Below, piece by piece: positions 21,798 to 50,241 of a stretch of 64,000 nucleotides of DNA (position 1 is the first letter of the stretch; the number at the start of each line of letters is the position of its first letter). Location: positions 57,513,829-57,577,828 of the forward strand of contig OW028573.1 in assembly GCA_932294295.1 (NCBI GenBank), given 5' to 3'. The stretch is from Alitta virens. Its lineage: Eukaryota > Annelida > Polychaeta > Phyllodocida > Nereididae. The notes under the pieces were generated by a model, which ran no database searches, was not told the origin of the DNA, and worked only from the letters and a program-made list of their open reading frames with translations. A program made the translations under genes and the position numbers.

Positions 21798-22149
21798 TGA
21801 ATGGTTGGATCATCATCCATCGTCGAGCATTAACCATCACCCCCCAAACTAGCAGTTTCTGCACTACAAGCATTTTTATATATTGTGATCTATGTGCTTT
21901 TACACTCAAGTAATAACTGTGCATGATGCCTTGTTATATAAACTCCTAATTCAAATGTTGTACTTAAATTAACATTGTGATAATGAACAGTATTAACTGC
22001 AGTAAAGCCCCGTTCCCACATAGCCGAGTTACTCGTAGTCAACTCGTAGTATTACGTAACACGCCTCTCGGGCCCAACTCTTACTAAACTCGGCGATTAC
22101 TCCTCGCACTCGAGAGATGCTCGGCGAGTAACTCCTGAGTCTCGTAGCG

Positions 22150-22480
22150 AACTCGTGAGATTTGGAGCCGAGTTTGCCGAGTCTCCCGAGTATGCCGTGC
22201 TGCACGGCACACTCGGCGAATTATCCAGGAGTCCAAAAACTCGGCCATGACTCGCCGAGTTACTCCTCGAACTCGCCGAGTTACTCCTCGAACTCGCCGA
22301 GTTACTCCTGGAACTCGCCGAGTTACTCGCCGAGTTACTCGGCGCTAATTTCACTCGTATTACACTCGACTGGATGTTCAAGAGTGCGAGGAGTAATTCG
22401 CCGAGTTGTAGGAGTAATTCGCCGAGTTGTAGGAGTAATTCGCCGAGTTGTAGGAGTAATTCGCCGAGTTGTAGGAGTGC
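22150..22480. repeat. Left subterminal array of the Harbinger
   Basis: Two oppositely oriented blocks. 22256-22345 has units of GCCGAGTTACTCCTCGAACT; 22384-22470 has four units of AGGAGTAATTCGCCGAGTTG plus T. Each unit contains the near-palindrome ACTCGCCGAGT. The motif GCCGAGTTACTC also starts at base 18 of the terminus, so the array probably gives extra transposase or DNA-binding-protein sites. Confidence 0.85.
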
Positions 22481-22626
22481 CAGAATTCAGTCGAGGGGGT
22501 TTAAAGTGTCACTCCGTGGGTTTAACCAGTGAATGATGTAGATCCAACGCGCTTGGACTAACTGCAAATGACGCAATGGTATCTGGGTTTGTTATGTCAT
22601 CACAGCGGGGTACGCTCTCTAGGTAG

Positions 22627-22662
22627 TATATAAAGATTGACCAGTGATCAGGGGATCATTCA
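22627..22662 (+). promoter_or_regulatory. TATA box and histone-type cap box of Harbinger gene 1
   Basis: TATATAAA at 22627-22634 is followed by TCATTCA at 22656-22662. The A of TCA is 31 nt from the first T of the TATA box, the usual start-site distance. TCATTCA fits the PyCATTCPu cap box known from sea-urchin histone genes. The start codon is 59 nt further on. Confidence 0.65.
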
Positions 22663-22716
22663 GCATTTTGCTAACACACATAGAAGACCAAAAGACCGCT
22701 TCAGAAATTTTTTATC

Positions 22717-24345
22717 ATGCCGATGAAAAAGACCAGGTTCGCCAAAAGGCCTGCAGTGGACACAGAACTATCTGCTGGATCTTCTGATGACTCTGAAAAC
22801 CCGACAAAGACATCGCAGAAGACTGCTCTTCCTGTGAAGAAAATGAAGAAGTCTGCTCCAAGATCTCCTGCCAAGAGGACTGCTGCTGCAAGATCTCCTG
22901 GCAAGAAGACTGCTGCTGCTGCAAGATCTCCTGCCAAGAGGACTACTGCTGCTGCAAGATCTCCTGCCAAGAGGACTGCTGCTGCAAGATCTCCTGCCAA
23001 GAGGACTGCCAAGACGCGTCTGCCAGTGCCAGTAAGAACGTCATCAGATGCTGGCAGTAGTAATGATGAGCCCCAGGTTGCTACTCCTGCGTCTGCTGCA
23101 GCACCTGCTACTTCTTCGCCTGCACCTGCTCCTTCGCCTGCTCCTTCGCCTGCTCCTTCGCCTGTTCCTTCGCCTGCTCCTTCGCCTGCTTCTTCGCCTG
23201 TTCCTTCGCCTGCTCCCTCGCCTGCTACTTCACCTGCTACGTCCGAAGTGCCTGCTACACTTTCCTATGTTGCCAGGAAAAAACAGGAAAAGTTGTTCCT
23301 GCCAGCCACTGATGAGCAGGATATCGCTGACTGGTTTAGAGACAATCCCATTTTTTATGACCGGACCTTGAAAGCCTACAAAGATTCAGGCAAGAAAATG
23401 GCCCTCATCAATGAGATGGCAAGCAAACTGAGTGTCCCCTGCACTGGATACCAATTGAAAACCTGGATGGAATCCATGCGGACTGTCGCAGGGAAACTAG
23501 TGCGGCAGGGACCATCTGGAACTGCGAAGAGGAACCCCACAGAGAAGGAGTTGTGGATTATATCGAATTTTGGATTCCTTGTGGACCACATTACACGTAT
23601 TCCAAGTCGCCGGGGGAACACTGCCCTCCAGAAGAAAATTGGCAAGGCACGGGAGACACTTAAAAATCTCGAGGAAGAAGAAGGGAGCTCTACTCCAGCT
23701 GATGATTCCGGGCCCCAGGAAATTTCTGATCCGGACATTTCTATGGATATCCCTCCTGTCCGGCAGACGAAGGGTGGTCCATACAAGAAAAGGAAAAGGT
23801 CCACGCCACCGCAATCTGGCATAGAAAATCTTGTTAACATTGCCAGACAGTCTACTGGAGTCATCCAGCAGACTATGCAGCAAATGGCCGTTCCTCCAAA
23901 GGATTTGAAGGAGAGGCGAATCCGGGCGATGGGGGAGTTCATTGTCATGGAATGCCTGTCCATGGATGATGAAGCATTTGAAGACCTGCACAGCAACCTG
24001 ATCCCCACATTCATGCAGCTCAAAGCGAATGCCATTAGAGCCAGGTTCCAGCTGCAGCATCAACCCCAGCATCAACCTCAGCAATTCATGCAGCACCAGC
24101 AGCATCACCAGCAGCAGCACCAGCAGCAGCACCAGCAGCACCAGCAGCAGCACCAGCAGCAGCACCAGTTCTATCCTCCTTCTGGGTCCCAGCATCAGGT
24201 GCACTTCCCACCAATGATAAGTCCAGAAAAGAATTGGCCAGCGGGAACCTCAGCAATGCCTCCTTCCGGACCTCCATCCATGATTTCCGAGATTCCCACC
24301 ACTTCAACTCCTGCTTTGAACATAAGCCAGTTTTTGAATGTTTGA
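22717..24345 (+). CDS. Harbinger MADF/Myb-like DNA-binding protein with SPxK tail
   Basis: 542 residues, intronless. Residues 45-105 contain five S-P-[AG]-K-[RK]-[TK] repeats in an Ala/Arg/Lys-rich stretch, like SPKK minor-groove-binding tails of histone H1 and sea-urchin sperm H2B. Residues 120-180 are Ala/Pro/Ser low complexity. A MADF-like (Myb/SANT-type) domain follows at about 190-290, with DWFRDNPIFYDRTLKAYKD and LKTWMESMRTVAGKL as its helices. A basic patch KKRKR at about 357 may be a nuclear signal. After a helical segment comes a Gln/His-rich run and the end ALNISQFLNV. In Harbingers this partner protein recruits the transposase to DNA and to the nucleus. The start was chosen as the first ATG after the TATA/cap box. 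The SPxK tail is unusual for the family as I know it. Confidence 0.85.
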   Translation: MPMKKTRFAKRPAVDTELSAGSSDDSENPTKTSQKTALPVKKMKKSAPRSPAKRTAAARSPGKKTAAAARSPAKRTTAAARSPAKRTAAARSPAKRTAKTRLPVPVRTSSDAGSSNDEPQVATPASAAAPATSSPAPAPSPAPSPAPSPVPSPAPSPASSPVPSPAPSPATSPATSEVPATLSYVARKKQEKLFLPATDEQDIADWFRDNPIFYDRTLKAYKDSGKKMALINEMASKLSVPCTGYQLKTWMESMRTVAGKLVRQGPSGTAKRNPTEKELWIISNFGFLVDHITRIPSRRGNTALQKKIGKARETLKNLEEEEGSSTPADDSGPQEISDPDISMDIPPVRQTKGGPYKKRKRSTPPQSGIENLVNIARQSTGVIQQTMQQMAVPPKDLKERRIRAMGEFIVMECLSMDDEAFEDLHSNLIPTFMQLKANAIRARFQLQHQPQHQPQQFMQHQQHHQQQHQQQHQQHQQQHQQQHQFYPPSGSQHQVHFPPMISPEKNWPAGTSAMPPSGPPSMISEIPTTSTPALNISQFLNV

Positions 24346-24369
24346 AGACAACAGTTTTAAAACCATCCC

Positions 24370-24406
24370 CGGCCTTTTTCAAGGCCACCAAATCCTCCCA
24401 AAAGAG
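24370..24406 (+). terminator. Histone-type 3' end signal of Harbinger gene 1
   Basis: 24 nt after the stop codon: stem GGCCTT (24370-24375), loop TTTC (24376-24379), stem AAGGCC (24380-24385), then ACCAAA. This fits the replication-dependent histone stem-loop GGYYYY-UHHN-RRRRCC-ACCA bound by SLBP. AAAAGAGC at 24399-24406 starts 13 nt downstream, the right place for a histone downstream element, and could pair with the CUCUUU of U7 snRNA. There is no AATAAA between stop and stem-loop. Whether it is processed this way is inferred, not shown. Confidence 0.75.
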
Positions 24407-24634
24407 CACGCCTTGTACACATATCTGTGTATAAACAATCAATCAAAAAAAAAAGTTCCAAAACCCTCCAAACTTTTCTCTATCTTTGTCCACGAAAGTA
24501 TAATATTTTAGTCCAAAATCAATTTCTTCACATCAAGTAACTTGTTCATATTTCCTTTTCATTACAGCACAGATATTGGTCCATTTTTTTGTAATATTTC
24601 TTTTAATAAGGGTTAATAATTTTGATGAAAGAAG

Positions 24635-24965
24635 ACATACTTTTTTTGGTTCAGAAGTGCCGTAGTTGTTGGTTGTTCAGAAGTGCCGTACTTTTTTTTT
24701 GTTCAGAAGTGCCGTAGTTGTGTCTTGTTCAGAAGTGCCGTATTATTTTTTTTGCTTCAGAACTGCCGTAGTTTTTTCTTGTTCAGAAGTGCCGTATTAT
24801 TTTTTTTGCTTCAGAACTGCCGTAGTTTTTTCTATTATACTGCAATGAAAATAATGAAAGTACGGCACTTCTGAACAAGAAACAACTACGGCAGTTCTGA
24901 AGCAAAAAAAAGGAAGGCACTTCTAAACAACCAACAACTACGGCACTTCTGAACCAATAAAATAT
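24635..24965. repeat. Inverted repeat of GTTCAGAAGTGCCGTAG units between the two genes
   Basis: The left arm (24650-24830) has about six units of TTCAGAAGTGCCGTA separated by T-rich spacers; some read AACTGCCG. The right arm (24858-24957) has four units in the opposite orientation. The arms fold into a long imperfect hairpin located exactly between the two convergent 3' ends. Function unknown; a spacer or insulator role is only a guess. Confidence 0.85.
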
Positions 24966-25021
24966 TTTGTGTGGGTCAGACAGGAACTTTTTTTTTATTA
25001 CACAAGAAGTGTACATGGTCT

Positions 25022-25058
25022 GCTCTTTTGGGAGGATTTGGTGGCCTTGAAAAAGGCC
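25022..25058 (-). terminator. Histone-type 3' end signal of the Harbinger transposase
   Basis: On the minus strand, 20 nt after the transposase stop: stem GGCCTT (25058-25053), loop TTTC, stem AAGGCC (25048-25043), tail ACCAAA, and AAAAGAGC at 25029-25022. Stem, spacing and downstream element are identical to those of gene 1, and about 35 bases around them are shared, so one signal was copied in inverted orientation to serve both genes. Confidence 0.75.
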
Positions 25059-25078
25059 GGGGTTGTTTTGTGGAATCT

Positions 25079-26404
25079 TTATACCATGTCATCTTGCCAT
25101 GGCACTCTTCCTTCTTCTGAATTGACAAAGTCCACCAAGTACTGCCGTTGATTCTTGGCTGCTTCAGTCATAGAATGCCCTCTATTTGTTGGTGGCATTT
25201 CATCGATTTCTCCAGCTGCCCTCCAAGTTCCTGGGATGATACGATGTGTGATTGGATCTTCATGGTCCAGCATGATGTTCTGAGCAGTCGGATAAGTTAT
25301 TCTCATCAGATTGTGGAGGCAGCAACATGCAATGACTATAGATTCCACTGTCTTAGTTCTTTGTGGCATGGTAGTCAGGAGACACCTGAACCTTGCTGCA
25401 AGGATCCCAAATGCGTTTTCCACAATTCTTCTTGCCCGGGAGAGGCGGTAATTGTATATCCTCTGCTCTTTGGTCATGTTTCTGAGAGGCAGTGGCTTCA
25501 TCAGCCAGGTTCTCAAGGGGAAGGCATCATCTCCGACAATGAAGTAGGGAAGAGGTCTGTGACCAGGAAGAATTGGTTCAGGTGGAGGTAATCCAATGGT
25601 CCCTTCTTCAAGTCCTTCTCTCAGGAGTGTATCATTAAAAACTCCTCCATCAGATCCAGCGCCGTTTGCTCCACAGTCTACATAGAGGAACTTGTAATCA
25701 GCATCCACAAGAGCCATGAGTACGATGGAATGGTAGCCCTTGTAATTGAAATACACTGAACCACCTTTTGGAGGACATTTGATGGCCACATGCTTCCCAT
25801 CAATGGCTCCAATACAGTGAGGAAAGTTCCACCTTGAATAGAACAGTTTCGCAACTTCTCTCCACTCTTCTGGAGTTGTGGGGCATGCCAGGACATCTTC
25901 ATTATACTCCGCAATGATGGCTTCACAGACTTCTCGAATTATGTTGCTGATGGTATTGTAAGCCACTCTGAAGCCATACATGAGGGACCTGTAGCTGTTT
26001 CCAGTTGCCAAATAGCGGAGGGTGATGGCAAGTCTGAGTCCTGGCTCCAAAGCTTTCCTCCAGAAGGTGTCTTCTTTGGTAATCCTATGACCTATTTTGC
26101 CAAGGATCCCTTGAAACATGGCTGGTTCCATTCTCAAAAAGTTAGTATAACTAGAAGTGTCCTCTTGCATCAGTTCAGTCAGTAGACGCTCATACTGTCC
26201 CATCTGAGGTCTTCTCAGCAGCCAGGGCCTCACCCAATACCTCCTCCTCCTCTTCCTCCTCATGGCTGCTAATCTTCTTTCTTCTTTCTTCTTACTCTCC
26301 TCATCCTCAAGTAATGCTGCTGCAACAACAGCAAGTTGCAGATTCGCATGAGCAGCTAGTAGTACCAAGACTCTATTCTGATGTTCTGTCTGATGCATGT
26401 CCAT
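25079..26404 (-). CDS. Harbinger (HARBI1-type) DDE transposase
   Basis: 441 residues, intact, intronless. The basic N-terminal region (about 38-70) ends RRYWVRPWLLRRPQMGQYE, followed by a helical segment with FLRMEPAMFQ. The DDE_4-type catalytic core is visible: first Asp in GAIDGKHVAIKCP (D202), second in GAGSDGGVFNDT (D252), Glu in RARRIVENAFGILAARF (E329). Length and order match HARBI1-family transposases, which cut at the inverted repeats and integrate at TWA targets; here the target is TAA. It is transcribed convergently with the DNA-binding partner gene. All catalytic residues are present, so it could be active. Confidence 0.95.
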   Translation of the reverse strand: MDMHQTEHQNRVLVLLAAHANLQLAVVAAALLEDEESKKKEERRLAAMRRKRRRRYWVRPWLLRRPQMGQYERLLTELMQEDTSSYTNFLRMEPAMFQGILGKIGHRITKEDTFWRKALEPGLRLAITLRYLATGNSYRSLMYGFRVAYNTISNIIREVCEAIIAEYNEDVLACPTTPEEWREVAKLFYSRWNFPHCIGAIDGKHVAIKCPPKGGSVYFNYKGYHSIVLMALVDADYKFLYVDCGANGAGSDGGVFNDTLLREGLEEGTIGLPPPEPILPGHRPLPYFIVGDDAFPLRTWLMKPLPLRNMTKEQRIYNYRLSRARRIVENAFGILAARFRCLLTTMPQRTKTVESIVIACCCLHNLMRITYPTAQNIMLDHEDPITHRIIPGTWRAAGEIDEMPPTNRGHSMTEAAKNQRQYLVDFVNSEEGRVPWQDDMV

Positions 26405-26432
26405 GGTCCTCTCTCTTCAGCAGCTACAGACA

Positions 26433-26471
26433 GAATGATCAAGAACAGAAGATGCAGCCCCTATTTATATA
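26433..26471 (-). promoter_or_regulatory. TATA box and TCATTC motif of the transposase gene
   Basis: On the minus strand TATATAAA (26471-26464) is followed by GATCATTCTG, with the A of TCA at 26436, 35 nt from the TATA start. GATCATTC is also the sequence at the gene-1 start site, so the two promoters are matched. The last base of the cap box is T rather than a purine. Confidence 0.6.
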
Positions 26472-26539
26472 TTTTTGTAATTAAACACAGCTATTTGCAT
26501 AATAATTTAAGTAATAACCCTGATGAGTATCATGAGTAT

Positions 26540-26790
26540 AACTCGTCGACTTTACGAGTTACTCCTGGTACCCGGCGAGTTACTCCTGGTACTCGGCGAG
26601 TTACTCCTGGTACTCGGCGAGTTACTCCTCTAACTCGCCGACACTCTCCTCGAGATCGTTCACTAATTGGCTGCAACTCGGCGAGTCACTCTTGGTACTC
26701 GGCGAGTCGCTCGCTGAACCCGCCGAGTAACTCGGCGAGTAATTCGGCGAGTAACTCGGCGAGTCACTCCTGGTCATTTTTTCCGCAAAA
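26540..26790. repeat. Right subterminal array of the Harbinger
   Basis: Four 21-bp units of CGAGTTACTCCTGGTACTCGG (20 of 21 bases are constant across most units) at 26553-26640, then CTCGGCGAGTAACTCGGCGA-type repeats at 26690-26770. It shares the GGCGAGTTACTC core with the left array. Confidence 0.85.
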
Positions 26791-26887
26791 ATTCGTCGCC
26801 AACTCCTCGAATTTTGGGTGTTACGTAATTTTTGTTATTACTACGAGTTGACTACGAGTAACTCGGCTATGTGGGAACGGGGCTTAA

Positions 26888-35911: not shown

Positions 35912-36239
35912 CGCCTCATCAGCACCTGAGTGGGCTATGTAGAGGCTCTCTATGGTAAGAGTGATTATCTATAGTTGGTAGTAGAAACCAGAAGCCATCT
36001 ATAGTTGGTAGTAGAAACCAGAAGCATGTAAAAAATCAATAATTGTCTGCGTTGGATAGCTGGAGCAGCTTGTGCAATGCGTACTGTCCTGTTTTAGCCA
36101 CTGGGGATAGAGGACTTCACCCCAAGTGTTTCCACCCTCACCGCGTGGAGGCCCAGGAACTTCGAGGGTGCCAGGTCTCCTGCCAGGTTTTTTTTTCTTG
36201 ATTTGTCCCACAAAGATGTGTACATGGTGAGGATTTGGT

Positions 36240-36255
36240 GGCCTTGAAAAAAGCC
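36240..36255 (-). terminator. Relic of the histone-type stem-loop
   Basis: The minus strand reads GGCTTT-TTTC-AAGGCC followed by ACCAAATCCTC. One original C-G pair is now a T-G wobble, so the stem can still form. The AAAAGAGC element is gone: relative to the intact copy about 14 bases containing it are deleted. Confidence 0.65.
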
Positions 36256-36325: not shown

Positions 36326-36545
36326 TTACTTCTTCAGAGACATCGGAGTCATAAGGAAGGACGAGTTCATCAGCTGGCTCATGTTGAGCGGAGTCGAACT
36401 GGCAGGAAGGTTGTCACTGGCAGACAGCAAGGATCCAACTGAAGGAGGGTTCAAGGAAGAAGAACCAGGCACCACTGGAGAAGGTACAGCAGAGAAGACA
36501 CCCAATGAAGATGAAGGCCCCGGTCCAGAAGCTTCTCAAATCATA
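36326..36545 (-). pseudogene. Inverted 3' fragment of the DNA-binding protein gene
   Basis: The minus strand encodes LPASSTPLNMSQLMNSSF and a TAA at 36328-36326, resembling the TSTPALNISQFLNV end of the intact protein. The stem-loop relic lies about 70 nt downstream in the same direction. Because the 5' remnant (35717-35911) is on the plus strand, this block must have been inverted within the element. Confidence 0.5.
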
Positions 36546-36899
36546 TCGTCTTGCCATGGGACACTTCCTTCTTCTGAGTTGACATAGTCCACCAAGTACA
36601 GTCGTGGCACTCAGGGTAGCATAGTTCCCTCCGATCCTATGTGGTGGCATTTCAGCAATTTCTCCAGCTTCCCACCAAGCCTCAGGATTGACCTGATGGA
36701 TGACTGGATCTTCGTGGTCAAGCATGTTGTTCTGGGTTGTTGGATATCTGATTCTCATGAGGTTGTGGAGGCAGCAGCATGCAAGGACTAAAGATTCCAG
36801 TCTTAGTTTTCTGGGGTATAGTGGTTAGCAGACACCTAAACCTTGATGCCAGGATACCAAAGGCATTCTCCACAATCCACAATTCTTCTGGCTCTGGAG

Positions 36900-37072
36900 G
36901 GTGGGTGGGGTGATTAGGGCTTTACGTCCTGTATTTCGGCACCTGATGGGCTAATTAGGACAGGCAGAGACCATGGCAATGAGACGAAGGATGAAACAGC
37001 CATCCAACTTAGGCTCAACCGGGAATTGAACCCGGGACCCAGCGGTTGGAAGCCCAGAGTGCTACCTTTTCA
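36900..37072 (-). mobile_element. tRNA-derived SINE with target duplication
   Basis: Inserted in the broken transposase and flanked by GGCTCTGGAG at 36890-36899 and 37073-37082. The minus strand starts with a tRNA-like head (GGTAGCACTCTGGGCTTCC, then B box CCGGGTTCAATTCCCGG) followed by a body of about 120 bp. There is no obvious poly-A tail. Confidence 0.7.
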
Positions 37073-37387
37073 GGCTCTGGAGAGTCTGTAATTGTAGATC
37101 CTCTGCTGTTTGGTCATGTTGCGCAGAGGCAGCGGTTTTATCAGCCAGGTTCTCAAAGGGAAGGCATCATCCCCATCGATGAAGTATGGTACAGGTCATG
37201 CTTCCCATGGCATCAATACAATGGGGAAAGTTCCATCTTGCCTCACACAGCTGTGCAACTTCTCTCCACTCTTCTGGTGTTGTTGGACATGAAATGACAT
37301 CTTCTGCATACTCGGCTATGATGGCTTCACACACTTCAGGAATGATGTTGCTGATGGTGTTATGGGCCACTCTGAAGCCAAACATCA

Positions 37388-38325
37388 ACTAGAGCACATA
37401 AGATGTGCAACAAAGGTGGCTGGAGGCTGGTTGTATACATGTTCGACGTCCGTACCATTTGACAGCTGACATTATCAAAGCGAACGTTCGCTAACCACGA
37501 CGACCGGAGTGCATAAGTTCGTCAAAAGTTGATCAAATTTCAGAAAGTATAGATTAAATAAAAGCCAGAACGTCACAGAATACCTTTCTGAACAAAAACG
37601 GTATCCACTCCCTCTGGAAACTGCAAAATTCGCCGTTTTGTAGCCGTACCATTTTGACAACTGACATTTTAATGCGCTCCGTTCACTAACTACGACGAAC
37701 GGAGCGCATTAACTTCGTCAAAAGTTGATGAAATTTCTCAAAGTATACATTAAATAAAAGCCAGAACGTCATAGAATACCTTTCTGAACAATAAAGGTAT
37801 GCATGTCCTCTCGAAACCGCAAAATTCGCCGCGTTATGCGGCAATTTCCACGGGCATTTGGTTCTGTTGTAGCAGTGACCTACATAGCGCGAATACATTA
37901 AAGTAAGGAAAGAGGCCCCCGTTAGGTTTTCAAAATTGAACGACCAATCAACGTTTAGACACTGCTGAATTCCCCGCCGGGGCCTCTTGCCCGAACATGC
38001 GTGAAGCCATACAACGAACTTCGGTCATTTTCATTGGAGCTCGCCATCTTGTTAATCGGAGAGGCACAGTGTGAAAAATGCATGTTTTCACCGGCGATTT
38101 GTACCAACTTCGACTGGACGAAATGCTACCAAAAAGTATACAGCTCTGAAGCAAGTCATCGACTGCCTGCTGACAAAACGCGAAGTCTGTAGAGTCATTT
38201 TTGTGGCGTGAATCGCAGCACACAGAGACTTGTTTCATGCCCATTGACATAACATACGTTTTCAAATTTGCCGCCGACCTAGTTGTAAAAGCGGACACAA
38301 TGCCTTGCCAAGCTGGCTTCCGCGG
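37388..38325. other. Unidentified 0.9-kb insert in the broken transposase
   Basis: It splits the transposase between its FGFRVAHNT and RYLATGNS regions, which are adjacent in the intact gene. 37452-37840 is a 194-bp direct tandem repeat starting GTACCATTTTGACA. The rest contains CCCCGCCGGGGCC and unique sequence. I see no inverted termini or clear target duplication, so its nature is open. Confidence 0.55.
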
Positions 38326-39159
38326 AGCGATGCCTTGTGGCTGTTGCCAGTTGCCAAATACCTCAGGGTGATGGCAATCCTGAGTCCTGACTCCAAAGCT
38401 TTCCTCCAGAAGGAGTCTTGCTTGGTAATTCTAGGCCCAACTTTGGCAAGCAGCTCTTGGAACATGGCTGGCTGCATTCTCACAAAGTTCTGTAGTGGGT
38501 TCCATCCTCCATCAATAGTTCATTCATCAAGCATTCGTATTGGCCCATCTGAGGTCTTCGCAATAGCCATGGCCTCACCCAAAATCTCTTCCTTCTCTTG
38601 ATGACTGCTTGTCTTCTTTCTGCAGCTCTTCTGGACTGTTCTTCATTGTGCATAATAGCCTGTGCAATAGTTGCTAGTTGTACATTTAATTCAAAGCTGG
38701 CCTGATCCAATTTTACAATGGCTGTTGGTTGGTCTACTGCATGTGCCATGGTCCTTTCTCTGTGGTAACAAGGAGCAAAATGAGGGCTAAAGGCAAGCAG
38801 CCACTTATATATTTACATCTGCCCCCTCCACCATGACAGCCGGCCTTCAAACGTAGTACACTTGATACGCCCCTCACAATTACAAGCCTGCGGTTCGTAC
38901 GTAGATGCCGTGGAGTCTTCTGTCGTAAACGTGATTTACCCGTGGCTCACCCGGCATCAGACCGGGCATCATCGGGTTTGGTACGTATCCTACGTGTGTA
39001 AGCCGGGTGTCCGTGATTCACACCTCGCTGCCGCCAACTCACCCATCGCCTTAAGCACCTCCAACAACCTTGGTGAAGTCATCAAAATGGAGTATTACAT
39101 AATTCTACGAGAGCAATATGGCTTCTCCGGGAAAACCGGCTATGTGAGAACCCCCCTAA

Positions 39160-43709: not shown

Positions 43710-50241
<6,532 letters not shown>

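Follow-up and report, generated by a model that had tools for sequence, protein, structure and literature searches.

The question raised by a 64,000-nucleotide stretch of the genome of the polychaete Alitta virens (assembly GCA_932294295.1, contig OW028573.1, positions 57,513,829 to 57,577,828 of the forward strand; hereafter the window) is whether a DNA transposon can end its mRNAs in the manner of the replication-dependent histone genes. The window contains a complete PIF/Harbinger element whose two genes are each followed by a histone-type stem-loop and purine box. We consider it very probable that the signal for 3' processing found at the host histone H4 genes is nearly copied after both genes of the Harbinger elements of this genome. 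Since the ends nearly copy this signal, SLBP is predicted to bind the mRNAs and the U7 small nuclear ribonucleoprotein (snRNP) to cut them just after ACCA; they would carry no poly-A tail and likely be limited to S phase.

The Harbinger element and its 3' ends

PIF/Harbinger elements are characterised by a second gene for a Myb/SANT-like protein, by terminal inverted repeats and by a 3-bp TWA duplication. The element of the window fits this description, having a DDE_Tnp_4 transposase, a separate gene for a Myb/SANT-like protein, identical terminal inverted repeats of 45 bp beginning AGCCCCGTTCCCACATAGCCGAGTTACTCG, and TAA as the 3-bp duplication on either side (22003-22005 and 26885-26887). 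Each of its genes consists of a single open reading frame (ORF), and the two are convergent with 656 nt separating their stems. The product of gene 1 scores 26.7 bits against the MADF family (PF10545), which is above the cut-off of 22. Several homologues of the transposase bear the name HARBI1, and its named relatives are scattered, including proteins of a bacterial metagenome-assembled genome (62%), the oyster Saccostrea cucullata (58%) and the sea cucumber Holothuria leucospilota (55%). Unlike known PIF/Harbinger elements, the element has histone-type signals at the ends of both genes.

Both genes end in GGCCTT-TTTC-AAGGCC-ACCAAATCCTCCC-AAAAGAGC, located at 24371-24407 on the forward strand and at 25058-25022 on the reverse strand. 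The unit GGCCTTTTTCAAGGCC-ACCAAATCCTCCC-AAAAGAGC is identical after gene 1 and after the transposase gene, whereas the distance from stop codon to stem is 25 nt in the former and 20 nt in the latter. The original prediction had given the stem, the loop, ACCA, the box at 13 nt and the transposase distance just as they are found here, but had put the gap after gene 1 at 24 nt. It was also right that no AATAAA lies between stop codon and stem of either gene, while remaining silent on an AATAAA past the transposase stem. Both stem-loops agree with the consensus GGYYYY-UHHN-RRRRCC followed by ACCA, as formulated in that prediction.

As in replication-dependent histone mRNAs (RF00032), the element has a 6-bp GGCCUU/AAGGCC stem, a 4-nt loop, ACCA and an AAAGAG box at 13 nt; in contrast to these mRNAs, the unit belongs to transposon genes and not to histone genes. 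In the predicted RNA fold the 16-mer forms six base pairs and a UUUC loop (48 nt folded, -9.8 kcal/mol), and 0/200 and 6/200 shuffled sequences folded at least as well as the two units. The 19-mer GGCCTTTTTCAAGGCCACC was found in the window twice exactly and once with one mismatch (36237-36255, reverse strand), compared to a mean of 0.00 in shuffled sequences (n=100), and a looser search for GGYYYTTHHHARRRCCA, in which one mismatch was allowed, gave four matches compared to a mean of 0.72. The matches to the Rfam family Histone3 (RF00032) had E values of 1.1e-6 (30.7 bits) and 6.1e-6 (28.8 bits); a default Rfam scan listed no Histone3 in the window because both scores fall below the cut-off of 34 bits. 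Within 134 nt after the gene-1 stem no AATAAA was detected. The coordinates are summarised in Table 1.

Table 1. Features of the Harbinger element and of a decayed copy in the window
Feature	Position	Strand	Basis or remark
Complete PIF/Harbinger element	22006..26884		Terminal repeat alignment, flank reading, DDE_Tnp_4
Gene 1, 542 aa, MADF/Myb-SANT-like DNA-binding protein	22717..24345	+	Pfam PF10545, E 7e-6
Gene-1 stem-loop GGCCUU-UUUC-AAGGCC	24371..24386	+	25 nt past stop; sequence, RF00032 28.8 bits, fold
ACCA after gene-1 stem	24387-24390	+	
Gene-1 purine box AAAAGAGC (histone downstream element)	24400..24407	+	13 nt past stem
Gene-1 tail past box	24408..24440	+	Like same stretch of host H4 (TGTACACATAT-TGTGT); tail-only score matched by 2/500 letter shuffles
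Transposase, 441 aa, DDE_Tnp_4	25079..26404	-	Pfam PF13359, E 2.2e-30
Transposase stem-loop	25043..25058	-	20 nt past stop; sequence, RF00032 30.7 bits, fold
ACCA after transposase stem	25042-25039	-	
Transposase purine box AAAAGAGC	25022..25029	-	13 nt past stem
Transposase tail past box	24990..25021	-	AGACCATGTACACTTCTTGTGT vs host H4 AGACCATGTACACATATTGTGT; tail-only score matched by 9/500 shuffles
Third stem GGCTTTTTTCAAGGCC-ACCAAATCCTC, box lost	36240..36255	-	In decayed, interrupted Harbinger copy

Comparison with the host histone H4 genes, SLBP and U7

Using an H4 query sequence, the host H4 genes were located in the genome (671 Mb, 23 contigs) as a tandem array on contig C12 with 15 full-length copies among 18 matches and a repeat unit of mostly 5.8-5.9 kb. 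The histone comparison was confined to H4, of which one 3' end was read. This end has the sequence GGCCTT-TTTA-AAGGCC-ACCAAATCCTCC-AAAGAGAGC-AGACCATGTACAC; the H4 stop codon is followed after 37 nt by GGCCTTTTTAAAGGCCACCAAATCCTCCAAAGAGAGCAGACCATGTACACATATTGTGTTGAC, the transposase counterpart of which is GGCCTTTTTCAAGGCCACCAAATCCTCCCAAAAGAGCAGACCATGTACACTTCTTGTGTAAT. The element differs from H4 in its loop and in its box (CAAAAGAGC instead of AAAGAGAGC). The likeness begins with the stem and runs through the spacer and the box for about 20 nt more, so that the expected resemblance between the signals of the element and those of the host histones was borne out for H4, and beyond the processing signal itself. 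The 28-nt H4-type string GGCCTTTTTAAAGGCCACCAAANCCTCC had 23 matches in the genome (control: 0), 14 of which follow full-length H4 genes, one a split 16th copy, and eight lie elsewhere; its distance from the H4 gene is constant across the 14 full-length copies and the split one.

The stem, ACCA, the 13-nt spacing, the purine box and about 20 nt past it match the host H4 3' end. When the tails past the box were compared with H4, nine of 14 element tails reached scores that were matched by at most 9/500 letter shuffles, among them the gene-1 tail of family C (the Harbinger copies being assigned to families A, which includes the window element, B and C), the score of which was attained by 0/500. 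Because the likeness covers stem, spacer, box and about 20 nt past it, the tail of the element is a histone tail, either by descent or by very close convergence. Capture from a host histone gene seems the simpler reading compared to the reverse direction or convergence. Past the purine box a candidate hairpin ACACA-n-TGTGT (24417-24430 in the window) is common to the host H4 gene and several element tails; hairpins of this kind are not known to take part in the processing of histone mRNAs.

The RNA-binding domain of a host SLBP (PF15247) was detected on contig C8 in two pieces of 43.2 and 33.9 bits (cut-off 27). The purine box of the element contains the core AAAGAG, which pairs with CUCUUU of mouse U7 according to PMC7026596. 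Among the candidates for a host U7 small nuclear RNA (snRNA) obtained with the Rfam family RF00066, the best one (L034) resembled coding DNA by eye and another (L037) was without a clear 3' hairpin by eye. The pattern search for U7 gave 31 matches compared to nine for its control; the one judged best (L071) was rejected, having GCTCTTTCTAAATTTGTCTAG but no 3' hairpin and a score of 15.2 bits, and the other 30 were judged by their matched letters only.

Distribution and conservation of the Harbinger ends

The stem string GGCYTTTTTCAAGGCCACC occurs 910 times in the genome (422 on the forward and 488 on the reverse strand), compared to 0 for the reversed control pattern. The first 100 places were listed, all of which are on contig C1, and 25 regions picked there by convergent stem pairs gave, together with the window element, a sample of 26 elements. 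All 52 gene ends of these stem-chosen elements have a stem within 450 nt past the stop codon, the first stem lying 8-55 nt after it, and the purine box is found exactly 13 nt after a stem in 51 of them, the exception being the transposase side of L023. Since this sample had been selected by the stem, a search with the transposase protein was also run. Of its 2551 candidates 95 were scored, giving 95 matches, and 86 of these have no in-frame stop. Of the 18 matches on C1 two beyond the listed stem range were dropped and 16, including the window copy, were judged; in 16/16 the coding end is followed, on its own strand, by the exact stem at a distance of 24 or 27 nt. For 14 of these copies a gene-1 partner was present; one further copy is without the exact string, and the remaining one lies where the list of stem places stops. 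The original prediction, which depended on the stem being present in most intact copies, thus agrees with the copies examined, and its reading of the unit as a histone-type signal is supported both by these copies and by the near-identity to the host H4 end.

Between families A and C the gene-1 proteins share 35% of their amino acids, with 20/73 fourfold sites alike (chance level), and the transposases share 62%, with 55/114 fourfold sites alike. Over five aligned elements of families A, B and C the unit of stem and spacer is invariant across 34 contiguous columns after gene 1 and across 33 after the transposase gene. The box reads AAAAGAGC in families A and B, and AAGAAAGC or AAGAGAGC in family C. 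In 12 chosen stems from 10 loci 72/72 pairing cells are intact, including a change from U-A to C-G on both sides of the stem at two loci (L046 and L056). The histone-type unit is kept across diverged Harbinger families.

In families B and C the gene-1 3' untranslated regions (L012, L024, L025, L013 and L016) contain two to five tandem stem-loops, mostly spaced 26 or 28 nt apart, and in these runs the spacer ACCAAATCCTCC and the purine box are retained by the last stem only. Neither the stem string nor relatives of the transposase had any match in viral contigs. Among prokaryote genome contigs one relative of the transposase was found, on a stray eukaryotic-looking contig that ends just past the gene and carries no information on the unit.

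Histone-type ends on further multicopy elements

The genome search with Histone3 resulted in 67 listed matches (75 scored of 130344 candidates), two of which passed the curated cut-off, and 30 loci were fetched. The H4 genes were not among the listed matches. Of the fetched loci 22 fall in two further dispersed repeats. The ten loci of the first repeat (L046-L055) share 94.8-99.9% identity with L047 over 2.4-3.05 kb, except for L046, which aligns in pieces. Eight of them encode an ORF of 161 aa, with GGCCCTTTTAAGGGCC located 49 nt past the stop codon and followed by ACCAAATGTTCCAAAAAGGGC; the end as a whole (e.g. L047:1501-2099, reverse strand) reads GGCCCTTTTAAGGGCC-ACCAAATGTTCC-AAAAAGGGC, that is, a changed yet paired stem and a different box. 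For the 161-aa ORF of L047 no significant Pfam match was obtained.

Over 2.1 kb the 12 loci of the second repeat (L057-L068) share 94-96% identity with L058. Eleven of them have a weakly RING-like ORF, followed by a stem 18-19 nt after the stop codon in ten, and three loci encode on the opposite strand an ORF of 105 aa, which has a stem at 34 nt in all three cases; the boxes are AAAGAGAGC. In L057 and L067 two divergently arranged genes have histone-type ends (in L057 the RING-like ORF ends at 2753 on the forward strand and the 105-aa ORF near 1575 on the reverse strand). A PC4-like ORF (PF02229, E 1.3e-9) may not be part of this repeat because it occurs in L058 alone and outside the common stretch. 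The repeat is possibly virus-like. A tblastn search with the Harbinger proteins gave no match to the two repeats, and the protein homology search provided no name for either. At another locus (L056:1079-1560) an ORF of 131 aa without assignment is followed at about 30 nt by a stem GGCCCTTCTAAGGGCC-ACCAAATCCTCCCAAAAGGGC.

Histone-type ends in this genome are hence wider than one Harbinger, as two further multicopy elements have the same kind of end. On balance we favour the view that mobile elements of this genome have adopted histone mRNA ends repeatedly: several Harbinger families and at least two non-Harbinger multicopy elements, one with a RING-like gene and one with the 161-aa ORF, may have taken over the histone-only 3' pathway. 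Their expression, and with it their movement, would then be timed by replication and escape control that acts through poly-A.

Proposed expression mechanism and alternative explanations

By analogy with the histone pathway, the host SLBP would bind the stem of the element, the U7 snRNP would pair with the purine box and CPSF73 would cut the mRNA after ACCA, leaving no poly-A tail; the mRNA would then be made and kept mainly in S phase. As the signal is on both genes, replication would see the joint production of the transposase and its partner, and expression, hence transposition, would presumably follow DNA replication. Such timing would favour copy gain of a cut-and-paste element, either because it moves out of DNA that has been replicated into DNA that has not, or because the sister chromatid serves as template for repair. 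If this is true, the transposons are SLBP clients other than histones that occur naturally and in many copies, transposition is linked to S phase via an mRNA-level mechanism and the mRNAs of the elements are easily overlooked in poly-A RNA-seq. The timing of cut-and-paste elements to replication becomes a directly testable question. According to PMC6303110, only replication-dependent histones use the stem-loop/U7 pathway, and no histone-type ends on transposons were seen in the literature searched, which did not extend to preprints and most subscription papers.

Several findings weigh against histone-type processing of the element mRNAs. Neither stem-loop of the window element reaches the curated Histone3 cut-off, and where H4 has the loop UUUA the elements have UUUC. 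The exact host string is missing after one of the 15 H4 genes, and five of the 14 tails (L041m, L041p, L046, L056 and the RING element) have scores reached by 18-481/500 shuffles. Covariation in the stem is weak, since one pair changed on both sides was also reached by 139/500 shuffles; a stem slid by +1 yields an equal covariation score, yet only 67% of its cells pair. The 95 transposases scored among the 2551 candidates are closely related to each other, and the 16/16 copies with a stem therefore do not represent 16 independent events. A host U7 snRNA was found neither with RF00066 nor by the pattern search of the genome; RF00066 gave five matches, all short of the cut-off of 34 bits with 30.8 bits for the best, and 12/14 control genomes gave matches as well. 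Furthermore, families A and B have AATAAA 43 nt beyond the stem of the transposase gene (24999-24994, reverse strand, in the window), and the family-C copies L013 and L042 have it after a gene-1 stem, which leaves room for a poly-A fallback: these signals past the stems could give rise to polyadenylated mRNA.

Part of this evidence would suit the idea that the stem-loop is a relic of a single capture and that the elements are polyadenylated farther downstream, the tail being a passive passenger. The AATAAA past the stems in families A and B and in L013 and L042 would provide the required signals, and many copies are near-identical and hence young. We regard this as improbable, since no AATAAA follows the gene-1 stem of the window element or is present on the transposase side of L016, and since a passenger would hardly account for 33-34 nt being invariant between families that have reached saturation at the fourfold sites of gene 1, for 51/52 boxes at exactly 13 nt or for 72/72 paired stem cells over 10 loci. 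The sense orientation with the first stem 8-55 nt past the stop codons, the match to host H4 3' ends outside any transposon and the presence of the unit after the ORFs of other multicopy elements make it very improbable that the repeat is a DNA-level site instead of an RNA signal, either bound by the transposase or the Myb-like protein or homogenised by gene conversion of inverted copies. Such a site is suggested by the two copies in one element being mutual inverted repeats over about 60 nt and by the spacing of 26-31 nt between tandem copies; gene conversion within an element, however, cannot explain identity between families or to histones.

A further explanation shares its machinery with the proposed histone-type processing and differs on purpose only. 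The histone-type ends may chiefly be compact poly-A-free terminators for convergent genes, which would block read-through and thereby double-stranded RNA and silencing, with S-phase timing as a by-product. Although ordinary poly-A signals would serve equally and the signal is found on divergent genes in another multicopy element (L057, L067), this is conceivable, if rather unlikely, given the short distance of 656 nt from stem to stem between convergent genes, the signal on both ends in all 26 elements examined, the accumulation in families B and C of extra stems in tandem downstream of gene 1 and an intergenic stretch that is a long inverted repeat.

Other features of the window

The intergenic stretch between the two genes (24660-24945) consists of a long inverted repeat of TTCAGAAGTGCCGTA units that could form a large hairpin. 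Matches of this stretch to microRNA and other RNA families were rejected, as all of them were below the cut-off and are due to its being a long inverted repeat rich in AT.

The N-terminal region of gene 1 (22830-23020) encodes a basic tail built of AAARSPAKRT repeats, which may resemble the S/TPxK tails of histone H1. The gene-1 proteins of families B and C have low-complexity tails of other kinds.

The decayed Harbinger copy that contains the third stem is represented by transposase fragments at 36539-38686, which are 40-88% identical to the query. Based on the ORFs, pieces of an AAA ATPase gene, VCP/p97-like by eye, are located at 47300-49300.

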